Shown: positions 7,766-51,440 of the stretch, in pieces
How the letters are laid out: each line of letters opens with the position of its first letter
How positions within the stretch are numbered: position 1 is the stretch's first letter
From: Erysipelotrichales bacterium
GTDB lineage: Bacteria; Bacillota_I; Bacilli_A; Erysipelotrichales; Erysipelotrichaceae
Reading direction: 5' to 3'
DNA: 64,000 nucleotides
Assembly (NCBI GenBank): GCA_017532345.1
Contig: JAFXJJ010000094.1
Span: 1-64,000 of the forward strand
The notes under the pieces: generated by a model
The model's input: only the letters and a program-made list of their open reading frames with translations
Told to the model about the DNA's origin: nothing
Database searches by the model: none
Program-made: the position numbers and the translations under genes

Positions 7766-8419
7766 ATGAGTCAAGTAAAAGAATTGAAACTAAAATGTTC
7801 TAAATGTGGAGAAGAATTCGATATTGATATTTATGAAACAGTTAATATTACTACTGATCCAGAATTAAAGAAACGTGTATTAACTAAAGATATCTTTAAA
7901 GTTAATTGTCCTAAATGTGGCGAGTTACATCGTATTAATTATCCTGTAATTTATGCCGATGAAGAAAAGAAGATTTTGGTAAGCTTAGTAACTAAACAAT
8001 CTAAGTTAGATGATTTAAAGGACTTAGACAATATTAAGAAGATTAATTATTTATCAGAATATTGCTGTCGTTTAGTAGTTGATATGCATGAGTTTATTGA
8101 AAAGGTACTAGTGCTTGATGCTGGTTTAAATGATAAGGCGATAGAAGTAATGAAGGTGATTGTTCTTAGTAGCGGTGATTTTGATCGTAAGAACTTAAGA
8201 AATTGTTACTTCGGTGGGGTATATGAAGATAAATTACGCTTCGATGTAGTTATGAGAGATGGTACGATTCGTGTTGCGAATGTAGGCATGGATAGCTATG
8301 AAAAATGTTATGAAGCGAATCGTAAGGAATTTGATGAGAATCCACAAGAATGGCGCTTTGTGAATTTCGATTGGGCATTAGATTTCATGGCTAAACAATT
8401 AAAAATTGATAAGAAATAA
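7766..8419 (+). CDS. CpXC zinc-ribbon protein
   Basis: A 217-residue cytosolic protein. Two CxxC pairs at residues 11/14 and 48/51 (CSKCG, CPKCG), with the usual spacing, identify the CpXC zinc-ribbon domain. The C-terminal 130 residues are unassigned. The ribosome site region TTGGGAAAGGTAGG (7747-7760) is unusual: nine bases, TTGGGAAAG, are exactly complementary to the CUUUCCCAA of the small RNA encoded just downstream. Function is unknown. A terminator follows directly. Confidence 0.8.
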   Translation: MSQVKELKLKCSKCGEEFDIDIYETVNITTDPELKKRVLTKDIFKVNCPKCGELHRINYPVIYADEEKKILVSLVTKQSKLDDLKDLDNIKKINYLSEYCCRLVVDMHEFIEKVLVLDAGLNDKAIEVMKVIVLSSGDFDRKNLRNCYFGGVYEDKLRFDVVMRDGTIRVANVGMDSYEKCYEANRKEFDENPQEWRFVNFDWALDFMAKQLKIDKK

Positions 8420-8423
8420 GCGT

Positions 8424-8453
8424 AAAGACCAGGGTTGAGGTTCTGGTCTTTTT
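8424..8453 (+). terminator. Intrinsic terminator after the CpXC gene
   Basis: AAAGACCAG (8424-8432) pairs with CTGGTCTTT (8443-8451), then TT. Confidence 0.88.
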
Positions 8454-8511: not shown

Positions 8512-8540
8512 TTGAAAAGGCATACATATTTGTGTATAAT
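8512..8540 (+). promoter_or_regulatory. Promoter of small RNA A
   Basis: TTGAAA at 8512-8517 and a perfect TATAAT at 8535-8540 are 17 bases apart, a near-consensus housekeeping promoter. The -10 box ends 6 bases before the first stem of the RNA. It lacks the TTCANA repeats found at the second copy. Confidence 0.8.
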
Positions 8541-8546
8541 ATCAGT

Positions 8547-8625
8547 GTAGATGAAAATCTACTTTCCCAAATTTCTATGACTTTATTGGCAAAAGGACCT
8601 TACTCCCCCCGAAATGGTCCTTTTG
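8547..8625 (+). ncRNA. Candidate small RNA A (tandem copy 1)
   Basis: About 79 nt, with no reading frame. A 5' hairpin has stem GTAGAT/ATCTAC (8547-8552, 8557-8562) and a GAAA tetraloop. An unpaired core TTTCCCAAATTTCTATGAC follows. A terminator stem AAAAGGACC (8591-8599)/GGTCCTTTT (8616-8624) carries a loop rich in C (CTCCCCCC). The core is repeated almost exactly in RNA B, 161 bases downstream. UUUCCC and CUCCCC segments can pair with Shine-Dalgarno sequences. The layout (5' hairpin, single-stranded pyrimidine core, C-rich terminator loop) resembles streptococcal csRNAs, though the sequence itself is not one I can name. Confidence 0.72.
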
Positions 8626-8647
8626 TCGTTTATAGGACTTATGAATC

Positions 8648-8701
8648 TTCACATAATGTTCATATTTGCATCATACAAAATTCAAATAGTATATGTATGA
8701 T
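8648..8701 (+). promoter_or_regulatory. TTCANA-repeat operator and -10 box of small RNA B
   Basis: Four hexamers lie in exact 11-bp register: TTCACA (8648), TTCATA (8659), ATCATA (8670) and TTCAAA (8681). After 9 bases comes the -10 box TATGAT (8696-8701). No good -35 is present, so an activator of the OmpR/PhoB family is the likely driver. The same repeat-N9-(-10) geometry is found before htrA (28560-28591) and the VTC gene (15384-15437). Confidence 0.7.
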
Positions 8702-8707
8702 AATGGT

Positions 8708-8781
8708 GTAGACATAAGATGTCTACTTTCCCGAATTTCTATGACTTTGACGTAAAAGGCCGGCTCCCCAACCGGCTTTTT
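8708..8781 (+). ncRNA. Candidate small RNA B (tandem copy 2)
   Basis: About 74 nt. The 5' stem GTAGACAT/ATGTCTAC (8708-8715, 8719-8726) shows compensatory change relative to RNA A (GTAGAC/GTCTAC against GTAGAT/ATCTAC), which supports a real RNA fold. The core TTTCCCGAATTTCTATGAC differs from RNA A at one base. The terminator GCCGG (8759-8763)/CCGGC (8772-8776) has a CTCCCCAA loop and a T tail. The transcript would begin 6 bases after the -10 box, as in RNA A. It is probably a post-transcriptional regulator pairing with ribosome sites (inference). Confidence 0.72.
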
Positions 8782-8867
8782 ATGTACTTAAAAAGGTTGT
8801 GAATATGCTTAAATGTAAATACTTACATCATGTAATTTTCTATTGACAATATTTGAAAAAAATGCCT

Positions 8868-8897
8868 ATTTCACATCATTTTCCAAGTTTGTGAAAT
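8868..8897 (+). promoter_or_regulatory. Inverted repeat upstream of the PFOR promoter
   Basis: ATTTCACA (8868-8875) and TGTGAAAT (8890-8897) form a perfect inverted repeat with centres 22 bp apart, that is two helical turns. It lies about 40 bp upstream of the -35 box. It could bind a dimeric regulator. TTCACA-N5-TTCCAA (8870, 8881) also loosely fits the TTCANA repeat, but without the usual spacing to a -10. Confidence 0.4.
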
Positions 8898-9005: not shown

Positions 9006-12000
9006 ATGGCAAAGAAATACTTGTCTATGGATGGTAACTATGCTGCTGCGTATACTTCATATGCATTCTCAGAAGTAGCATGTATCTATCCTATTACTCC
9101 ATCTTCAACTATGGCAGAATATGTTGATCAATGGGCAAATCAAAACCAAAAGAATTTATTCGGTTCTGAAGTAAAGGTTGTTGAAATGCAATCAGAAGCA
9201 GGTGCGGCTGGTGCAATGCACGGATCATTACAAGCTGGATCATTAACTAGTACTTATACTGCTTCTCAAGGTTTATTATTGATGATTCCAAACATCTACA
9301 AATGGGTAGGGGAAAACCAACCAGCTGTAGTTCACGTTTCTGCACGTGCTCTTGCAACTCGTTCATTATCTATTTTCGGTGATCATCAAGACGTTTATGC
9401 TTGTCGTCAAACAGGTGTATGTATGTTAGCTTCTCACTCAGTTCAAGAATGTATGGACTTAGGTGGTGTTGCTCACTTATCAGCAATTAAATGTTCAATT
9501 CCTTTCTTACATTTCTTTGATGGATTCCGTACATCTCATGAAATTCAAAAGGTTGAATTAATGGATTATGATTTCTATAATCGTTTAGTGGACCGTAAAG
9601 CTATTGAAGAATTCAAAGCTAACGCTATGAACCCACACACAAATCCTAATCTACGTGGTTCAGCAGAAAATGATGACATTTACTTCCAAACTCGTGAAGC
9701 TCAAAACGAACGTTTTGACAGAGTTGCTGATGTAGTTGCTGACTATATGAAAGAAGTTTCTAAAGAAACTGGTCGTGACTATGCGCCATTCACATATTAC
9801 GGTGCTCCTGATGCTACACGTGTAATCGTAGCTATGGGTTCTGTTACAGAAACTTGCCGCGAAGTTGTTGATGCATTAAATGCAAACGGCGAAAAAGTTG
9901 GTTTAGTAAAAGTACACTTATATCGTCCATTCTCAGTTAAATACTTAACTGCAGTATTACCTGAAACAGTAGAAAAAGTTGCTGTATTAGATCGTACTAA
10001 AGAACCTGGATCATTAGGTGAACCTCTATACTTAGACGTTGTAGCTGCATTAACTGGTTACAAGAACGTTAAGGCTATCATTGGTGGTCGTTATGGATTA
10101 TCTTCTAAAGATACTCAACCTAACCAAATCAAGGCTGTTTATGATCACTTAAATGGTGCTTGCACTCATAACTTCACAATCGGTATTAACGATGATGTTA
10201 CTCATTTATCATTAACAGTAGATCCTACATTCCATATTAAGACTGATGCTACTAGCTGCTTATTCTACGGTTTAGGTAGTGATGGTACAGTATCTGCTAA
10301 CAAAGGTTCTATCAAAATCATCGGTGACCATACTGATTTATATGCTCAAGCATATTTCGCATATGACTCAAAGAAAGCTGGAGGTATCACTCGTTCTAAC
10401 TTACGTTTCGGTAAATCTCCAATTCATTCTACATACTATATCGAAAATGCTGACTTTATCTCATGTTCATTAGATTCTTATCTATTATCATTAGATATGT
10501 TACGTAATATTAAAGATGGTGGTACATTCTTATTAAATACTACTATTCCAGTTGAAAAGATTGAAGCTCATTTACCAAACCGCGTAAAAGCTCAATTAGC
10601 TCAAAAGCATGTTAATTTCTATATCATTAATGCTACAGAAATCGCTCAAAACATTGGTATGGGTCGTCGTACTAATACTATTCTTCAATCTGCATTCTTC
10701 GCATTAAATGAACAAATCTTACCTTATGATGAAGCATTAACTTACATGAAAGAATCTGCTAAGAAATCATATAGTAAGAAAGGTGAAGAAATCGTTCAAT
10801 TAAACTACAAAGCTATCGATGCTGGTAAAGCTGGTTTAGTTAAAGTTGAAGTTAAACCTGAATGGGCTGAATTAAAATATGATACTACACGTGTTCTTAC
10901 AGGTAACAAATACATGGATGAACATGATGCAGTTATCAATGCATTAGAAGGTAATGATTTACCAGTTTCTCACTTCGCTCAAGAAGGATTAATCAATGGT
11001 TATGTACCTGCTAACACTTCATTCAACGAACATCGTAACATTGCTACATTAGTTCCTGAATGGAATCCATCTACATGTATCCAATGTGGTATCTGTTCAT
11101 TCGTATGTCCACATGCTACAATCCGTACATTCTTATTAACAGATGAAGAAATCGCTAAAGCACCAGCTGAATTCGAAACAATTCCAGCTATGGGTAAAGG
11201 CGTAGAAGGATTAAAATTCCGCGTTCAAGTATCTGCTGACAACTGTGTAGGTTGTGGATTATGTGCTGTTGAATGTCCAGGTATGAAGGGTGAAAAAGCT
11301 CTTAAGATGGTTGACGTTAATACTCAATCAGCTCAAAACCCACTTGCTAACTGGATGTATAAAGAAACTGAATATAAGACTCAATACTTCCCAACTGATA
11401 CAGTTAAGGGTTCTCAATTCTTATATCCATACTTCGAAGTTTCTGGTTCATGTCCAGGATGTGGTGAAACTCCATACTACCACTTAATTTCTCAATTATT
11501 CGGTAAAGATATGATGATTGCTAACGCAACTGGATGTACTTCAATTTACTGTGGTTCATCTCCATCAACTCCATTCTGTACTGATAAAGAAGGTCGCGGT
11601 ATTTCTTGGGCTAACTCATTATTCGAAGACAATGCTGAATTTGGATTCGGTATGAAGTGGTCTCAATTATACAAGACTAACCGTATTTCTGAAATCATGG
11701 AAGCTACTAAGGGCGAAGTTGAAGCTGACTTAGCTAAGCTTTATGAAGAATACCAAGCAGTTATCGGTAACCGCGAAGAAGAACGTGTTATCGCTCCTAA
11801 ATTAGTTGCTGCATTAGAAGCTACTAAGTGTGAGGCTGCTAAAGAATTATTAGACTTCAAACGTGATTTAGTTTCTAAATCTGTTTGGGTTATCGGTGGT
11901 GACGGATGGGCTTATGACATCGGTTACGGTGGATTAGACCATGTTATCGCTAACAACTTAAATGTAAACATCTTAGTATTAGATACAGAAGTTTACTCTA

Positions 12001-12518
12001 ACACAGGTGGACAATCATCTAAATCTTCTCAAGCTGCTTCTATCGCTAAGTTCGCTGCTGGTGGTAAAGGCGGAGCTAAGAAAGACTTAGGTCAAATCGC
12101 TATGGCTTATGGTCATGTATATGTAGCTTCAATTTCTATGGGTGCTAACCGTGCTCAATGTATCAAAGCATTAAAAGAAGCTGAAAGCTATGAAGGACCA
12201 TCATTAATTATCGCTTATGCTCCATGTGATGGACACGGTATTAAGGGTGGATTAAGCAACCATCAAAAGGTTCAAAAAGCTGCAGTTGAATGTGGTTATG
12301 TAACATTATATCGTTTCGATCCACGTAACGAAGGTAATGAATTAACAATCGATTCACCAGCTCCAAACTGGGATAACTTCCGTGCATTCATGATGAATGA
12401 AGCTCGTTATGCTCAATTACCAAAAGTTAACCCTAACCATGCTGAAGAATTAATGACTAAGACTCAAACTGATGCTAAACGTCGTTATGACCGTCTTTGC
12501 AAACTTGCTGGTAAATAA
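9006..12518 (+). CDS. nifJ: Pyruvate:ferredoxin (flavodoxin) oxidoreductase, single chain
   Basis: A 1170-residue, full-length, homodimeric-type enzyme. It converts pyruvate and CoA to acetyl-CoA and CO2, passing electrons to ferredoxin. Seen in order: the N-terminal pyruvate-binding domain starting MDGNYAAAYTSYAFSEVA with YPITPSS; the central transketolase-like domains; a ferredoxin domain with CIQCGICSFVCPH (about residue 691) and CVGCGLCAVECPG (about 747) for two 4Fe-4S clusters; SCPGCGE (about 815), which supplies proximal-cluster cysteines; and the thiamine-diphosphate site GGDGWAYDIGYGG...NTGGQ (about 965-1005). Codon use is strongly biased and more uniform than in its neighbours, as expected for an abundant enzyme. 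It is monocistronic with its own promoter and terminator and implies anaerobic pyruvate fermentation. Confidence 0.97.
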   Translation: MAKKYLSMDGNYAAAYTSYAFSEVACIYPITPSSTMAEYVDQWANQNQKNLFGSEVKVVEMQSEAGAAGAMHGSLQAGSLTSTYTASQGLLLMIPNIYKWVGENQPAVVHVSARALATRSLSIFGDHQDVYACRQTGVCMLASHSVQECMDLGGVAHLSAIKCSIPFLHFFDGFRTSHEIQKVELMDYDFYNRLVDRKAIEEFKANAMNPHTNPNLRGSAENDDIYFQTREAQNERFDRVADVVADYMKEVSKETGRDYAPFTYYGAPDATRVIVAMGSVTETCREVVDALNANGEKVGLVKVHLYRPFSVKYLTAVLPETVEKVAVLDRTKEPGSLGEPLYLDVVAALTGYKNVKAIIGGRYGLSSKDTQPNQIKAVYDHLNGACTHNFTIGINDDVTHLSLTVDPTFHIKTDATSCLFYGLGSDGTVSANKGSIKIIGDHTDLYAQAYFAYDSKKAGGITRSNLRFGKSPIHSTYYIENADFISCSLDSYLLSLDMLRNIKDGGTFLLNTTIPVEKIEAHLPNRVKAQLAQKHVNFYIINATEIAQNIGMGRRTNTILQSAFFALNEQILPYDEALTYMKESAKKSYSKKGEEIVQLNYKAIDAGKAGLVKVEVKPEWAELKYDTTRVLTGNKYMDEHDAVINALEGNDLPVSHFAQEGLINGYVPANTSFNEHRNIATLVPEWNPSTCIQCGICSFVCPHATIRTFLLTDEEIAKAPAEFETIPAMGKGVEGLKFRVQVSADNCVGCGLCAVECPGMKGEKALKMVDVNTQSAQNPLANWMYKETEYKTQYFPTDTVKGSQFLYPYFEVSGSCPGCGETPYYHLISQLFGKDMMIANATGCTSIYCGSSPSTPFCTDKEGRGISWANSLFEDNAEFGFGMKWSQLYKTNRISEIMEATKGEVEADLAKLYEEYQAVIGNREEERVIAPKLVAALEATKCEAAKELLDFKRDLVSKSVWVIGGDGWAYDIGYGGLDHVIANNLNVNILVLDTEVYSNTGGQSSKSSQAASIAKFAAGGKGGAKKDLGQIAMAYGHVYVASISMGANRAQCIKALKEAESYEGPSLIIAYAPCDGHGIKGGLSNHQKVQKAAVECGYVTLYRFDPRNEGNELTIDSPAPNWDNFRAFMMNEARYAQLPKVNPNHAEELMTKTQTDAKRRYDRLCKLAGK

Positions 12519-15383: not shown

Positions 15384-15437
15384 TTCACATAAAGTTCAAA
15401 TAAAGACCATCTAACTTACAAATTATGGAAGTATTAT
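15384..15437 (+). promoter_or_regulatory. TTCANA-repeat operator and -10 box of the VTC/DUF4956 operon
   Basis: TTCACA (15384) and TTCAAA (15395) are 11 bp apart. Weaker in-phase copies are ACCATC (15406) and TACAAA (15417). Nine bases after the last copy comes TATTAT (15432-15437), overlapping TATAAT (15435-15440). The geometry equals that of the small RNA B and htrA promoters. Confidence 0.6.
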
Positions 15438-15461: not shown

Positions 15462-16217
15462 ATGAAGAATATTATGGTATTTGAGAGAAGTGAAAAGAAA
15501 TATTTACTAACTAAACAGCAATATTTGAAGTTAAGAGAAAAATGGGAAAATATTCAAATAGAAGATAAATATGGTCTTACAAGTATCTGTAATGTTTATT
15601 ATGATAGCGAAGATTATCGATTAATCCGTACATCATTAGAGAAACCAGCATATAAAGAGAAGTTTCGAGTGCGTAGTTATGGTATACCTACTAAAGATAG
15701 TACTGTGTTTTTAGAAATCAAGAAAAAGGTGCAGGATGTAGTATATAAACGTCGTATAGAATTAAAGTATGATGAAGCGATGAAGTTTTTAAAGAATCCT
15801 CAAGAGGCAGAATTAAATAGTCAAATAGCTAAAGAAATTAAGTATATGTTTCAAATATATCAACTAGAACCTAAGATGTTTGTAGCATATGATCGAATAG
15901 CTACTTACAACAAGAATAATCCTGATATTCGTGTTACATTTGATTTTAATTTACGCAATAGAGAAAATGAGTTGGACATTGGTGTAAGTGATAGAGGTAA
16001 TTTATTATTTGATGACGAGATGGTATTAATGGAAATAAAGGTTAATCAAGCTATACCACTTTGGATGGTAAAGGATTTTGAAGAGCTAGATATTAAACCA
16101 ATATCATTCTCTAAGTACGGCAATTTCTATCGTAAAAAGATTATGAATAATTATTATAAAGAAACAAGTAAAAGTATGGATATAGAAAGGATGTATAAAC
16201 TATGTTTTCAAGTATAA
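15462..16217 (+). CDS. VTC-domain protein (polyphosphate polymerase domain)
   Basis: A 251-residue cytosolic protein of the VTC/CYTH-like tunnel-fold superfamily. Seen are VFERSEKKYLLTK at the N-terminus, KFRVRSYG, FLEIKKK, YKRRIEL, AYDRIATY, RVTFDF and LMEIKVN. These are the alternating basic and acidic strands that line the tunnel binding triphosphate/polyphosphate and metal in yeast Vtc4-type enzymes. In bacteria this family is regularly paired with a DUF4956 membrane protein, as here, where the next gene overlaps by 16 bases. Whether it makes polyphosphate here is not shown. AGGAGG at 15451-15456 fixes ATG 15462. Confidence 0.85.
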   Translation: MKNIMVFERSEKKYLLTKQQYLKLREKWENIQIEDKYGLTSICNVYYDSEDYRLIRTSLEKPAYKEKFRVRSYGIPTKDSTVFLEIKKKVQDVVYKRRIELKYDEAMKFLKNPQEAELNSQIAKEIKYMFQIYQLEPKMFVAYDRIATYNKNNPDIRVTFDFNLRNRENELDIGVSDRGNLLFDDEMVLMEIKVNQAIPLWMVKDFEELDIKPISFSKYGNFYRKKIMNNYYKETSKSMDIERMYKLCFQV

Positions 16218-16876
16218 TTGATAGCACTACTAGTGTATTGACAATACAGAATGTATTGATGTGTACAGTAGTATCAGCATTATTAGGATTACTAATTGCA
16301 GTAATATATCGAAAAGAAAGTGATTCTTCTAAGAATTTCTTCATTTCGTTAGTTATGTTGCCAGTATTAGTTCAAACAGTAATTATGATGGTGAGTGGTA
16401 ACTTAGGAACGGCTGTAGCTGTAGCAGGAACATTTTCACTTGTACGTTTTCGCTCAATGCAAGGAACAGCAAGAGAGATTGTGTACGTATTCTTTGCGAT
16501 GGCTATTGGTCTAGCAACAGGAATGGGATATGTGACATTTGCAGCTTTAATTGCCGTTATGGGATCGATAATATATTTACTTGTTAGTCGGATATCATTC
16601 CCTGAAGATAGTGAAAATGAGAAGGAGCTTCGTATCACAATAGCAGAAGACTTAGACTACACTAATGCATTAGATGATGTACTTAATACATATACTAGTA
16701 AGTATTCATTATATCGTGTAAAGACAGTTAGCTTAGGCAGTATGTATGAATTACGTTATCGTGTAACATTAAAGGATATTAGTAAAGAAAAGGAAATGCT
16801 AGATGAAATACGTATACGTAATGGTAATCTTACCGTAGTATCATCTAGGTATGTCGGGAATATGATGTCATTATAA
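16202..16876 (+). CDS. DUF4956 membrane protein
   Basis: A 224-residue protein with about four membrane helices in the first 130 residues: 12-37, 45-70, 88-107 and 110-128. Between helices lies the conserved cytosolic loop LVRFRSMQGTAREIVYVFFA. The remaining 90 residues form a small alpha/beta cytoplasmic domain. This is the standard partner of bacterial VTC proteins, and the 16-base overlap implies translational coupling. The usual third partner, CotH, is absent here; a Cthe_2159-like lipoprotein, which can accompany such sets, lies at 49330-51300. Confidence 0.88.
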   Translation: MFSSIIDSTTSVLTIQNVLMCTVVSALLGLLIAVIYRKESDSSKNFFISLVMLPVLVQTVIMMVSGNLGTAVAVAGTFSLVRFRSMQGTAREIVYVFFAMAIGLATGMGYVTFAALIAVMGSIIYLLVSRISFPEDSENEKELRITIAEDLDYTNALDDVLNTYTSKYSLYRVKTVSLGSMYELRYRVTLKDISKEKEMLDEIRIRNGNLTVVSSRYVGNMMSL

Positions 16877-28559: not shown

Positions 28560-28591
28560 TTCATATACTTTTCACATTATGGTCCTATAAT
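28560..28591 (+). promoter_or_regulatory. TTCANA-repeat operator and -10 box of htrA
   Basis: TTCATA (28560) and TTCACA (28571) are 11 bp apart; 9 bases later comes TATAAT (28586-28591). A third TTCACA at 28536 is out of exact phase. There is no consensus -35, because the repeats cover its place, which is the usual arrangement for an OmpR/PhoB-type activator. The geometry matches 8648-8701 and 15384-15437. Confidence 0.68.
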
Positions 28592-28620: not shown

Positions 28621-29802
28621 ATGGAAACAAATAAGGATGTTTTTGAAGCAGAAGTGAATGAAACATATTCAAATAGTAATACTGTAAAGAAGCCAAGCTT
28701 CTTTCAAAAATTTAAAATAGGAACTATTGTATCATATTTAGTATTTGGTACTGTATGTAGTTTTGGTGGAGCATATGCTGCTGTTGAGTATATTGATTAT
28801 AAGGATTCAACAGTACCAGTACAAGATAATGTGACTACTAATAATCCTTCTTCAACAAGTCAAATTGTATATGTTGATAAGAGTGGTAATTATTCAATTG
28901 CTGATGCCACAGCGATGGTTAAAGCTAGTGTTGTTGAGATTCAAACAGAAGTTGTTACTAAATCATCATACTTTGGACAATATGTATCTAGCGGTGCAGG
29001 TTCAGGGGTCATATATTCAAATGATGGCTATATCATTACGAATAATCACGTTATTGATGGTGCTACTAATATTACGGTTATCCTAAATGATGGTACAAAG
29101 CATGCTGCCAAGTTAATTGGTACAGATAGTAAAACGGACTTAGCAGTGATTAAGATTGAAGCTACAGGTTTACAAGCAGCAGTATTTGGTAATTCTGATT
29201 CATTAGTTGTTGGTGAACAAGTAATTGCGATTGGTAATCCATTAGGCGAGCTTGGAGGTAGTGTAACTGAAGGTATCATTAGTGCGAAGGATCGTGAAAT
29301 TCAAATTGAAAGTCAAACAATGACGTTACTTCAAACAACAGCTGCTGTTAACCCTGGTAATTCAGGTGGTGGATTATTTAATCTAAAGGGTGAATTAGTG
29401 GGTATTGTGAATGCGAAAAGTAGCGGTAGTGATGTGGAAGGATTAGGCTTTGCGATTCCAGTAACTACAGCAAAGGATATTATTACAGATTTAATTGACC
29501 ATGGTTATGTAACTGGTAGACCTCAATTAGGTATTGCTGGCTATGAAATCAGTGATTATTATAGTGCAATGCGTTATGGTGTAAATCAACTAGGTGTCTA
29601 TGTAGCCGAAGTAACAACAAACAATGGCTTAGAAAAAGGTGACTTAATCGTTCAAGTGGATGATACAATGATTACTAACTGGGCAGCATTGACATCAGTA
29701 CTTGATGAACATAAAATTGGTGATACATTAGATATTATCGTATATCGTAATGGTAAACAACGCACAGTTAAAGTAACATTAACGGAATATAAACCTCAAT
29801 AA
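28621..29802 (+). CDS. htrA: HtrA/DegP-family membrane serine protease
   Basis: A 393-residue envelope protease of family S1C. An N-terminal cytosolic stretch and one membrane anchor (about residues 35-57) precede the trypsin-like domain. The catalytic triad is His in ITNNHVIDGA (about 142), Asp in SKTDLAVIKI (about 172) and Ser in NPGNSGGGLFN (about 248). A single PDZ domain (about 300-390) includes NGLEKGDLIVQVDDTMI. It degrades or repairs misfolded secreted proteins. GGAGG (28607-28611) fixes the start. It lies just ahead of a response regulator and kinase, as in CssRS or CiaRH loci, with a hairpin in between. Confidence 0.95.
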   Translation: METNKDVFEAEVNETYSNSNTVKKPSFFQKFKIGTIVSYLVFGTVCSFGGAYAAVEYIDYKDSTVPVQDNVTTNNPSSTSQIVYVDKSGNYSIADATAMVKASVVEIQTEVVTKSSYFGQYVSSGAGSGVIYSNDGYIITNNHVIDGATNITVILNDGTKHAAKLIGTDSKTDLAVIKIEATGLQAAVFGNSDSLVVGEQVIAIGNPLGELGGSVTEGIISAKDREIQIESQTMTLLQTTAAVNPGNSGGGLFNLKGELVGIVNAKSSGSDVEGLGFAIPVTTAKDIITDLIDHGYVTGRPQLGIAGYEISDYYSAMRYGVNQLGVYVAEVTTNNGLEKGDLIVQVDDTMITNWAALTSVLDEHKIGDTLDIIVYRNGKQRTVKVTLTEYKPQ

Positions 29803-29807
29803 TTGAT

Positions 29808-29838
29808 AAAGTTCACATCTTAATAAATGTGAACTTTT
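29808..29838 (+). terminator. Terminator or attenuator between htrA and the response regulator
   Basis: AAAGTTCACAT (29808-29818) pairs perfectly with ATGTGAACTTT (29827-29837), followed by TATT. The 11-bp stem ends htrA transcripts at least partly, so regulator expression may depend on readthrough or its own promoter. Confidence 0.75.
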
Positions 29839-29890
29839 ATTGAGATAAAGCATTAAAAGTGATAGGATTAAATATATGGAGGATAAACAT

Positions 29891-30571
29891 ATGAGTAGAT
29901 TATTGGTAGTGGATGATGAAGAAAAAATACGCACAATAATTAATAAATATGCCGTATTTGAGGGACATGAGGTTGTTGAAGCTAAGAATGGTATGGATGC
30001 CATTGAAAAGGCAAAGGAAGGTAAATTTGATATCATTATTATGGATGTGATGATGCCTGAATTAGATGGCTTTTCAGCATGCAAGGAAATTCGTAAGTTT
30101 ACTAATATTCCAGTTATTATGTTGTCAGCTCGTGGCGAAGAATATGATAAGATACATGGCTTTGAGATAGGGGTAGATGATTATATTGTTAAGCCATTTT
30201 CTCCGAAAGAATTAATGATGCGTATCACAGCTATTCTTAAACGCTATAGTGGTGGTAATCAAGCTAGAAATAAAGAACAGTTCATTTATAAAGGGTTAGT
30301 TATTGATTTTGGTGCACATACTGTAAGTATTGATGGTAATAAGATTGATTTATCGCCGAAAGAATATGATTTACTTATATATTTAGTACAAAACAAAAAT
30401 CTAGCTTTAACTAGAGAAAACTTAATATCTAAGGTTTGGGGGTATGATTTCTTTGGAGATGATCGTACATTAGATACACATATTAAGCTATTAAGAAAGT
30501 CATTACAAGATTATAGTAACTGTATCATCACAGTTCGAGGGGTAGGATACCGTTTTGAAGCTGAGGAGTAA
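29891..30571 (+). CDS. OmpR-family response regulator (htrA-linked)
   Basis: A 226-residue regulator. The receiver domain has VVDDEEKIR at the N-terminus, phospho-acceptor Asp in IIMDVMMPELDG (about residue 51), switch Ser in MLSARG and Lys in IVKPFSPKE. The winged-helix DNA-binding domain (about 130-226) shows LSPKEYDLLIYLVQNKN and DDRTLDTHIKLLRKSL. ATG 29891 is chosen over 29876 because GGAGGA (29878-29883) precedes it. It overlaps the kinase gene. OmpR-family regulators bind 11-bp-period direct repeats, which makes it the leading candidate for the TTCANA operators (inference). A close paralogue is at 43548-44225. Confidence 0.93.
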   Translation: MSRLLVVDDEEKIRTIINKYAVFEGHEVVEAKNGMDAIEKAKEGKFDIIIMDVMMPELDGFSACKEIRKFTNIPVIMLSARGEEYDKIHGFEIGVDDYIVKPFSPKELMMRITAILKRYSGGNQARNKEQFIYKGLVIDFGAHTVSIDGNKIDLSPKEYDLLIYLVQNKNLALTRENLISKVWGYDFFGDDRTLDTHIKLLRKSLQDYSNCIITVRGVGYRFEAEE

Positions 30572-32018
30572 GAAGGATAGTAAAGTATCTATAAAGTATA
30601 AGGTATTTGGGTATTTCGCAATATTTATCGCATGTACAATCGCGTTCTTATGGTTCTTTCAAATATTATTCTTGAATGAATTCTATAAGATGACAAAGAT
30701 TAATGAAATTAAGCAATCAGCTATCACTATTGAGAAATCAATTAATCTAGAGAATGCTGATGATATCCTTAAAGAATTAGCATATAAGCGTGATTTATGT
30801 ATAGAAATAGTCAATATTGATAGTGGTATTAAAGTAAGTGTAGAAGCTGATCATAACTGTATTATTCATAAGTTAACGTATGTAACATTACTACATTATT
30901 TAGAAGAAGCTAAAGCTAATGGTGGTAGTTATACTGAAATAATTTCATCATCAAATGACAATGGCTTATTAATGTTTCCATTTATGCGTAAATCACCTGA
31001 ATCATTAGTATATGCCAAGGTAGCAACAATTAATGAACAAACAGTATTAATGGTATTAAATACGTCAATATCACCAGTAGATGCGACCGTAAATACGATT
31101 AAGATACAGTTGATGGTATTAAGTGTATTACTTGTAATCTTAGCTTTTATCTTAGCAATGATTATGTATAAACGGATATCTAAGCCAATCATGGAAATCA
31201 ATGATAGTGCTAAGGAACTAGCTAAGGGTAATTATGATATTACGTTTAATGGTGGTGGATATTTAGAAATAAGTGAGTTATCTAATACATTAAACTATGC
31301 TAGTCATGAGCTTAATAAAGTTGAAACACTTCGACAAGAACTAATTGCCAATATATCTCACGACTTACGTACACCACTGACAATGATTAGTGGGTATGCA
31401 GAGGTTATGCGTGATTTACCGAATGAAAACAATAGTGAGAATGCGCAAATCATTATTGATGAAGCAGCTCGTCTAACTAGTCTAGTTAATGATGTATTAG
31501 ATTTAAGTAAGCTACAATCAGGTACGCAAGAACTACAAATTGAAGAATATGATATCACATCTTCGATTAGTAGAATACTAGAGCGTTTTAAGAAGTTTAC
31601 AAGTAAAGATGGCTATGTGATTGAATACAACTATGATGAGCATATTTATATAGAAGCTGATGAATTACGCATATCACAGGTTGTTTATAATTTAATTAAT
31701 AATGCTCTTACATATACTGGTGATGATAAGACAATTATCGTTAATCAAAAGGTAATCAATGATTATGTACGAATTGAAGTATGCGATCATGGCGTTGGTA
31801 TACCAGAAGAAATGCTTGCTAGTATATGGGAGCGATATTATAAGGCTAAGAATCAGCACCGTAGAGCAATCAATGGCTCAGGATTAGGTTTAAGTATTGT
31901 GAAATCTACACTTGAGGCACATAATGAAATCCTACCTGATGTTAGTAGATATGGTGTAGAATCAAAGATAAATGAAGGTAGTGTATTCTATTTTGAATAT
32001 CGTATATCTAAATCTTAA
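30555..32018 (+). CDS. Sensor histidine kinase (htrA-linked)
   Basis: A 487-residue membrane kinase. TM1 is at about residues 14-37, an extracytoplasmic sensor of about 140 residues follows, then TM2 (about 180-204) and HAMP (with ELAKGNYDITFNG). The phospho-acceptor His is in ANISHDLRTPLTM (about residue 268). ATP-binding boxes are NLINNALTYTG (N), CDHGVGIPEEM (G1) and NGSGLGLSIVK (G2). It begins at TTG 30555 inside the end of the regulator gene with a weak ribosome site, so translation is probably coupled. A terminator follows. It is closely similar in plan to the kinase at 44229-45710. Confidence 0.92.
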   Translation: MKLRSKKDSKVSIKYKVFGYFAIFIACTIAFLWFFQILFLNEFYKMTKINEIKQSAITIEKSINLENADDILKELAYKRDLCIEIVNIDSGIKVSVEADHNCIIHKLTYVTLLHYLEEAKANGGSYTEIISSSNDNGLLMFPFMRKSPESLVYAKVATINEQTVLMVLNTSISPVDATVNTIKIQLMVLSVLLVILAFILAMIMYKRISKPIMEINDSAKELAKGNYDITFNGGGYLEISELSNTLNYASHELNKVETLRQELIANISHDLRTPLTMISGYAEVMRDLPNENNSENAQIIIDEAARLTSLVNDVLDLSKLQSGTQELQIEEYDITSSISRILERFKKFTSKDGYVIEYNYDEHIYIEADELRISQVVYNLINNALTYTGDDKTIIVNQKVINDYVRIEVCDHGVGIPEEMLASIWERYYKAKNQHRRAINGSGLGLSIVKSTLEAHNEILPDVSRYGVESKINEGSVFYFEYRISKS

Positions 32019-51379: not shown

Positions 51380-51440
51380 TTCAGATAGAGTTCACATTGT
51401 TTCAGAAAAACTTCAAAATCATCAACAATTATTATATAAT
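51380..51440 (+). promoter_or_regulatory. TTCANA repeats in the divergent promoter region
   Basis: Four copies are TTCAGA (51380), TTCACA (51391), TTCAGA (51401) and TTCAAA (51412), spaced 11, 10 and 11 bp. TATAAT follows at 51435-51440, 17 bases after the last copy, so that copy could also act as a -35. The spacing differs from the 9-bp gap at the other three promoters. The array may serve the phosphatase gene, the divergent lipoprotein gene or both. Confidence 0.5.

Follow-up and report, generated by a model that had tools for sequence, protein, structure and literature searches.

Between a CpXC-domain gene and the pyruvate:ferredoxin oxidoreductase gene nifJ of an Erysipelotrichales bacterium lie two similar terminator-ended elements, and the question is whether they are small RNAs, what controls them and on which mRNAs they would act. 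The window analyzed here is the whole 64-kb stretch on contig C65 of the source genome (2.1 Mb, 89% complete), in which the CpXC-domain gene is followed by a terminator-like hairpin of its own (8424-8451). Each element is about 80 nt long and consists of a 5' hairpin, an unpaired UUUCCC core and a terminator with a CUCCCC loop. The folding energies of both RNAs are far lower than those of shuffled sequences (Table 1), and each has one dominant fold. The original prediction, which had a tandem pair of small RNAs with anti-Shine-Dalgarno segments, placed the two stems 161 bases apart and saw compensatory changes between them; the stems indeed begin at 8547 and 8708, and from GTAGAT/ATCTAC to GTAGACAT/ATGTCTAC a T-A pair is replaced by C-G and two pairs are added. 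Its nearly invariant core TTTCCC[A/G]AATTTCTATGAC was located in both elements (8563-8581 and 8727-8745), with two exact matches against 0.09 expected with up to three mismatches. The C-rich terminator loops (TTACTCCCCCCGAAAT in copy 1, CTCCCCAA in copy 2) and the -10 boxes, each stopping 6 bases 5' of its stem, were also found as described.

Table 1. Coordinates of the sRNA copies, their promoters and the associated genes (positions without a locus prefix are those of the window; G000, source genome; G001, sister species)
Feature	Position	Strand	Genome	Remarks
CpXC-domain protein	7766-8419	+	G000	5' neighbor of copy 1
Copy 1 promoter	8512-8540	+	G000	-35 TTGAAA 8512-8517, 17-bp spacer, -10 TATAAT 8535-8540
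sRNA copy 1	8547-8627	+	G000	fold z -6.35; covariance models (copy 1 in training set)
Copy 1 hairpin; unpaired core	8547-8562; 8563-8587	+	G000	core UUUCCCAAAUUUCUAUGAC...
Copy 1 terminator stem; loop	8588-8599/8616-8627; 8600-8615	+	G000	C-rich loop
Copy 2 promoter	8648-8701	+	G000	four hexamers in 11-bp steps (8648-8686): TTCACA 8648, TTCATA 8659, ATCATA 8670, TTCAAA 8681; 9-bp gap; -10 TATGAT 8696-8701
sRNA copy 2	8708-8783	+	G000	fold z -5.06; covariance models
Copy 2 hairpin; core	8708-8726; 8727-8751	+	G000	core UUUCCCGAAUUUCUAUGAC...
Copy 2 terminator stem; loop	8752-8763/8772-8783	+	G000	loop CUCCCCAA
nifJ	9006-12518	+	G000	marks syntenic site in G001
VTC-domain/DUF4956 promoter	15384-15437	+	G000	TTCACA, TTCAAA, ACCATC, TACAAA in 11-bp steps, 9 bp, TATTAT
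htrA operon box and -10	28560-28591	+	G000	TTCATA-n5-TTCACA-n9-TATAAT
HtrA-type serine protease	28621-29802	+	G000	Trypsin_2 + PDZ
OmpR/PhoB-family response regulator	29876-30571	+	G000	proposed sRNA activator
Sensor histidine kinase	30555-32018	+	G000	htrA operon
sRNA C77a	L091:3262-3335		G000
sRNA C77b	L091:7162-7231		G000
sRNA C64	L092:2345-2425		G000
sRNA nifJ-site copy	L009:699-780		G001
sRNA C35	L090:3336-3414	minus	G001
sRNA C31	L093:2103-2176	minus	G001

The tandem arrangement stood, but the pair proved to belong to a larger family. A first covariance model (R1), built from three sequences, gave one further copy (C77a), and a second model gave three more that we judged real in the two genus genomes, both of which are incomplete metagenome-assembled genomes (MAGs). 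The sister species, Erysipelotrichaceae MAG SIG230 (SVBO01000012.1), is the only other species of the genus in our set. Eight copies are now known in the genus, five in the source genome and three, including one at nifJ, in its sister; six of them, three per genome, lie beyond the pair in the window, and the covariance search that had been suggested for relatives found both stems and core kept. The two species share synteny at three sites. One is upstream of nifJ; one is near fba, convergent to a gene for a 209/213-aa protein (C77b/C35); and the third has a MATE gene on one side and a radical-SAM gene, in convergent orientation, on the other (C64/C31). The 209/213-aa proteins (L091:7245-7874, minus; L090:2685-3326, plus) contain Cys residues, are encoded convergently to an sRNA copy in each of the two genomes, and gave no Pfam match.

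In the eight-sequence alignment, 98% of cells are paired and 13 of 20 pairs show two-sided change, figures biased towards structure because the alignment was curated to it; none of 500 shuffles reached this pairing and covariation, and shifted controls dropped to 44-51%. UUCCC stands immediately 3' of the hairpin in all eight copies and extends to UUCCCUC in five. Synteny, covarying stems and the retained UUUCCC core support the predicted sRNAs with anti-Shine-Dalgarno segments, which are presumably transcribed. The sequence had not been recognized when the pair was first described, and an Rfam 15 search of the family returned zero matches at gathering score; weak matches to drum and mt-tmRNA (window 8638-8870) fell under that score, were out of register and were rejected. 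Judged from sequence, this is a previously uncatalogued Erysipelotrichaceae RNA family. R1 matches outside the genus were all weak, those at L026-L028 being chance-like, and in a contig pattern search that gave eight matches besides the sister species (L059), the two opened (L053, L061) fell inside coding sequence.

To which mRNAs would such segments bind? Both genus genomes were searched for GAGGGAAA-N2-10-ATG, in which a start codon follows the complement of UUUCCCUC, and among pattern-positive open reading frames (ORFs) of at least 90 aa, 11 of 17 were lipoproteins by eye. One of them, a BMP-family binding lipoprotein whose 5' region reads GGAGGGAAAGAAAATG, was found in both species. Gene statistics came from samples of about 0.77 and 0.80 Mb (about 1.5 Mb) with crude gene calls, giving 1366 genes, of which 4.1% encode lipoproteins. 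GAGGGAA, to which the core of five copies is complementary, was the top lipoprotein-enriched 5'-untranslated-region 7-mer of 239 (7/12, p=9e-8). The signal is strong in the sister species (6/12, p=8.5e-6) and weak in the source genome (GAGGGAA p=0.06); a control genome (G274) held 3 lipoproteins only, too few for an enrichment test. These counts suggest that lipoprotein targeting is likely. The targets of copies 1 and 2 may differ, because their core reads UUUCCC[A/G]AA instead of UUUCCCUC.

The same data bear on the strongest alternative, that the RNAs act generically against the Shine-Dalgarno sequences of a broad mRNA set, or on targets other than lipoproteins such as a few metabolic mRNAs or a protein. 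RNAduplex ranking placed the true cores no better than many shuffled cores, the best-ranked targets were varied and lipoproteins did not stand out robustly, and the copies diverge outside UUUCCC, as such action would allow. Against this, GAGGGAA and AGGGAA are the words most enriched in lipoprotein genes among the 239 and 408 tested, whereas canonical Shine-Dalgarno words are not enriched (GGAGGAA, 6/103). Generic or other targeting seems to us a plausible though doubtful account.

The promoters point to the regulator. Copy 1 matches the -35/-10 consensus at 11 of 12 positions and lacks a phased direct repeat, so that on its promoter sequence it is probably constitutive or otherwise controlled. 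In the other seven copies a good -35 is missing; instead, hexamers are directly repeated every 11 bp (as TTCACA-n5-WWCACA or in degenerate form), and 9 bp separate the final hexamer from the -10. In copy 2 and in the orthologous nifJ-site copy of the sister species, where the layout upstream is the same (L009:639-692), the repeat comprises four degenerate hexamers of that phase. Together the two genus genomes hold eight exact copies of TTCANA-n5-WWCACA-n9-TANNAT, at five sRNAs, two htrA operons and one Csm6-type gene. The htrA-regulator-kinase operon (28621-32018) lies in the same window, 20 kb from the sRNAs, and its box is the top-scoring match there, with no mismatches in either species. 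The same phased repeat is found at the regulator's own gene, at htrA and at the sRNAs, and we infer from this position and autoregulation that the regulator would bind the box.

Other boxed loci were noted. The VTC-domain (polyphosphate polymerase-like)/DUF4956 genes (15462-16876) have a four-hexamer layout identical to that of copy 2, making this operon a candidate second regulon member. The Csm6-type HEPN-domain gene (446 aa) has an exact phased box (L158, G000:C74:40455-40486, minus), and its ortholog a box with one mismatch (L159, G001:C7:45788-45819, minus), which suggests that a ring-nucleotide-type effector may be under the stress regulator. At 51380-51417 of the window, two more TTCA(G/C)A repeats, with a less clear phase to the -10, lie between a tyrosine phosphatase gene and the divergently oriented gene of a Cthe_2159-type carbohydrate-binding lipoprotein. 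TTCACA repeats also stand 5' of two ABC genes, one for an exporter (L105, G000:C4:5051) and one for a sugar/glycerol-phosphate-type binding lipoprotein (L113, G000:C63:12379); the repeats of the latter lie 31 bp from the -10, two 11-bp turns further out (+22 bp).

A scan of 273 genomes of the bacterial family for TTCACA-n5-WWCANA-n9-TANNAT gave about 130 sites, spread over 89 genomes, and its reversed form gave 13, an enrichment of about tenfold with totals counted by eye from rows. Among 71 box sites read, 9 are upstream of HtrA and 11 upstream of the regulator, and of the source genome's eight OmpR-type paralogs it is the htrA-linked one to which all 11 boxed regulators are nearest (54-68% identity). 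At further sites the box is followed by C-rich, terminator-ended sRNAs (genera g8, g20, g32, g57 and g59). Some sRNAs outside the genus hold a complete anti-initiation segment, such as UUUUUUCAUUUUUUAUCCUCC (L225), the reverse complement of GGAGGAUAAAAAAUGAAAAAA, and the structure model alone led to sRNAs in g53, g39 and g8 (L172, L173, L176), where the phased promoter was found too. A second sRNA type was seen in genera g10, g32, g43, g5 and g37 (L171, L062, L025, L182, L174), with a hairpin starting GTATGA, UUUCUAUCCCCUUAA or UUUCUCCC segments and a CUCCCC terminator loop; it had no match in Rfam, and no clear promoter box was seen.

These sites also weigh on the idea that the RNAs are real and answer to another OmpR-family regulator (WalR, a PhoP-like one acting on a PHO box, or the like), htrA being just one of the genes that it controls. 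TTCACA-n5 direct repeats presumably resemble PhoP boxes, the source genome has eight OmpR-type regulators to choose from, and a glycerol-3-phosphate-type ABC binding protein is boxed at the +22-bp phase (L113). However, the box precedes the ortholog of the htrA-linked regulator in 11 other genomes and no other OmpR paralog at the 71 sites inspected. A PHO regulon was rejected, as no pst operon lies behind the box and the sole PstS-like match in the source genome looks tungstate-type. We regard control by another regulator as improbable.

Still less credit goes to a cis-acting role, in which tandem hairpins and terminators would form 5' leaders or attenuators tuning read-through into nifJ, even though in both species nifJ follows downstream in the same orientation and each element ends in a terminator. 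Four copies (C77b, C35, C64 and C31) adjoin an opposite-strand gene, and because two syntenic sites face convergent genes the family copies are not cis leaders. At nifJ itself, 223 bases separate the second terminator from the start of the gene, which lies outside the sRNA unit, and no alternative antiterminator fold is evident beside the single dominant fold of both RNAs; this reading is very improbable. Short leaderless peptides (in copy 1, ATG AAA ATC TAC TTT CCC AAA TTT CTA TGA), hinted at by an ATG within the hairpins of copies 1, 2 and C64, were dropped as having a negligible chance, since the core frames of copies 1 and 2 are unlike, C77a and C35 lack an ATG, and upstream Shine-Dalgarno sequences are absent.

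It is thus quite probable, reading the sequence evidence as a whole, that these are multicopy trans-acting anti-Shine-Dalgarno sRNAs driven by the HtrA-linked two-component system, with lipoprotein mRNAs as favored targets. Structure, covariation, synteny, the shared phased promoter and motif enrichment can be read in the sequence itself; we infer an inducing signal, regulator binding, transcription and target repression. Under envelope stress, the htrA-linked response regulator would activate every copy except copy 1, with the RNA starting at or just 5' of the hairpin, which may protect its end. The exposed UUUCCC(UC), together with the C-rich terminator loop in the nifJ-locus copies, would bind Shine-Dalgarno sequences rich in purines (GAGGGAAA/GGGAAAG) by base pairing and prevent translation, with exported-lipoprotein mRNAs favored, so that secretion load would go down while HtrA goes up.

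How does this compare with known systems? The closest architecture is that of the Streptococcus csRNAs of the CiaRH regulon, which are likewise multicopy with a 5' stem-loop, an unpaired anti-Shine-Dalgarno core and a terminator (PMC3091779). This likeness had been claimed from the pair, whose stem-loop, Shine-Dalgarno-complementary unpaired region (core UUUCCC, loop CUCCCC) and terminator stem-loop bear it out, and it goes further than the original prediction had it: an OmpR-type direct repeat (N6-N5-N6) stands at a fixed -10 distance, the box is common with htrA, and htrA is linked to the same two-component system. A CAU anti-AUG, likewise a csRNA trait, occurs in several family members outside the genus and in none within it. 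The csRNA search used TTTAAG-N5-TTTAAG at distance 10 from TATAAT, and the CiaR recognition helix is VVEVYVSKVRKKL (PMC3091779), whereas here the box is TTCACA-n5-WWCACA, 9 bp from the -10, the regulator helix DDRTLDTHIKLLRKSL, the core UUUCCCUC and the host Erysipelotrichaceae. Because regulator, box and sequence all differ, we take these RNAs not to be csRNAs by descent.

Listeria LhrC, in the LisRK regulon, is multicopy, under envelope-stress two-component control, and targets oppA and tcsA (PMC4132741, PMC8079631). The present family shares multiple, partly tandem copies, UCCC in the single-stranded linker and terminator loop and, as the common promoter suggests, the type of control. The oppA/tcsA pair matches the lipoprotein class predicted here, tcsA being a BMP-type lipoprotein gene. 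In contrast to LhrC, the 5' loop (loop A) lacks UCCC; the search of Rfam 15, which may not include an LhrC model, detected no LhrC homology at gathering score. RsaE/RoxS and other Gram-positive UCCC sRNAs also use C-rich unpaired segments to block Shine-Dalgarno sequences, but they differ in being single-copy with other regulators and another structure, and the present family has no Rfam match. The Bacillus subtilis CssRS secretion-stress system is similar in controlling HtrA-type proteases; the texts consulted name no csRNA-like sRNAs for it, and we do not equate the regulator here with CssR. A full-text literature search found no paper combining Erysipelotrichaceae, sRNA, a two-component system and htrA. 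If our reading is right, Erysipelotrichaceae gain a stress-sRNA regulon whose promoter code can be read, which suggests that Bacillota have repeatedly placed an HtrA-type protease and ribosome-blocking sRNAs under a common regulator; that lipoprotein genes bear a Shine-Dalgarno variant of their own, through which they are controlled together, would be a simple, testable idea. The family would work like csRNAs and LhrC and is filed under neither. We tentatively put forward, as an appreciable possibility, that an HtrA-linked envelope-stress two-component system with multicopy anti-Shine-Dalgarno sRNAs was built here for a third time, separately from CiaRH-csRNA and LisRK-LhrC, and would silence lipoprotein synthesis as a class via the GAGGGAA variant; if true, this would be the Gram-positive equivalent of the sRNA branch of sigma-E, which shuts off outer-membrane proteins.
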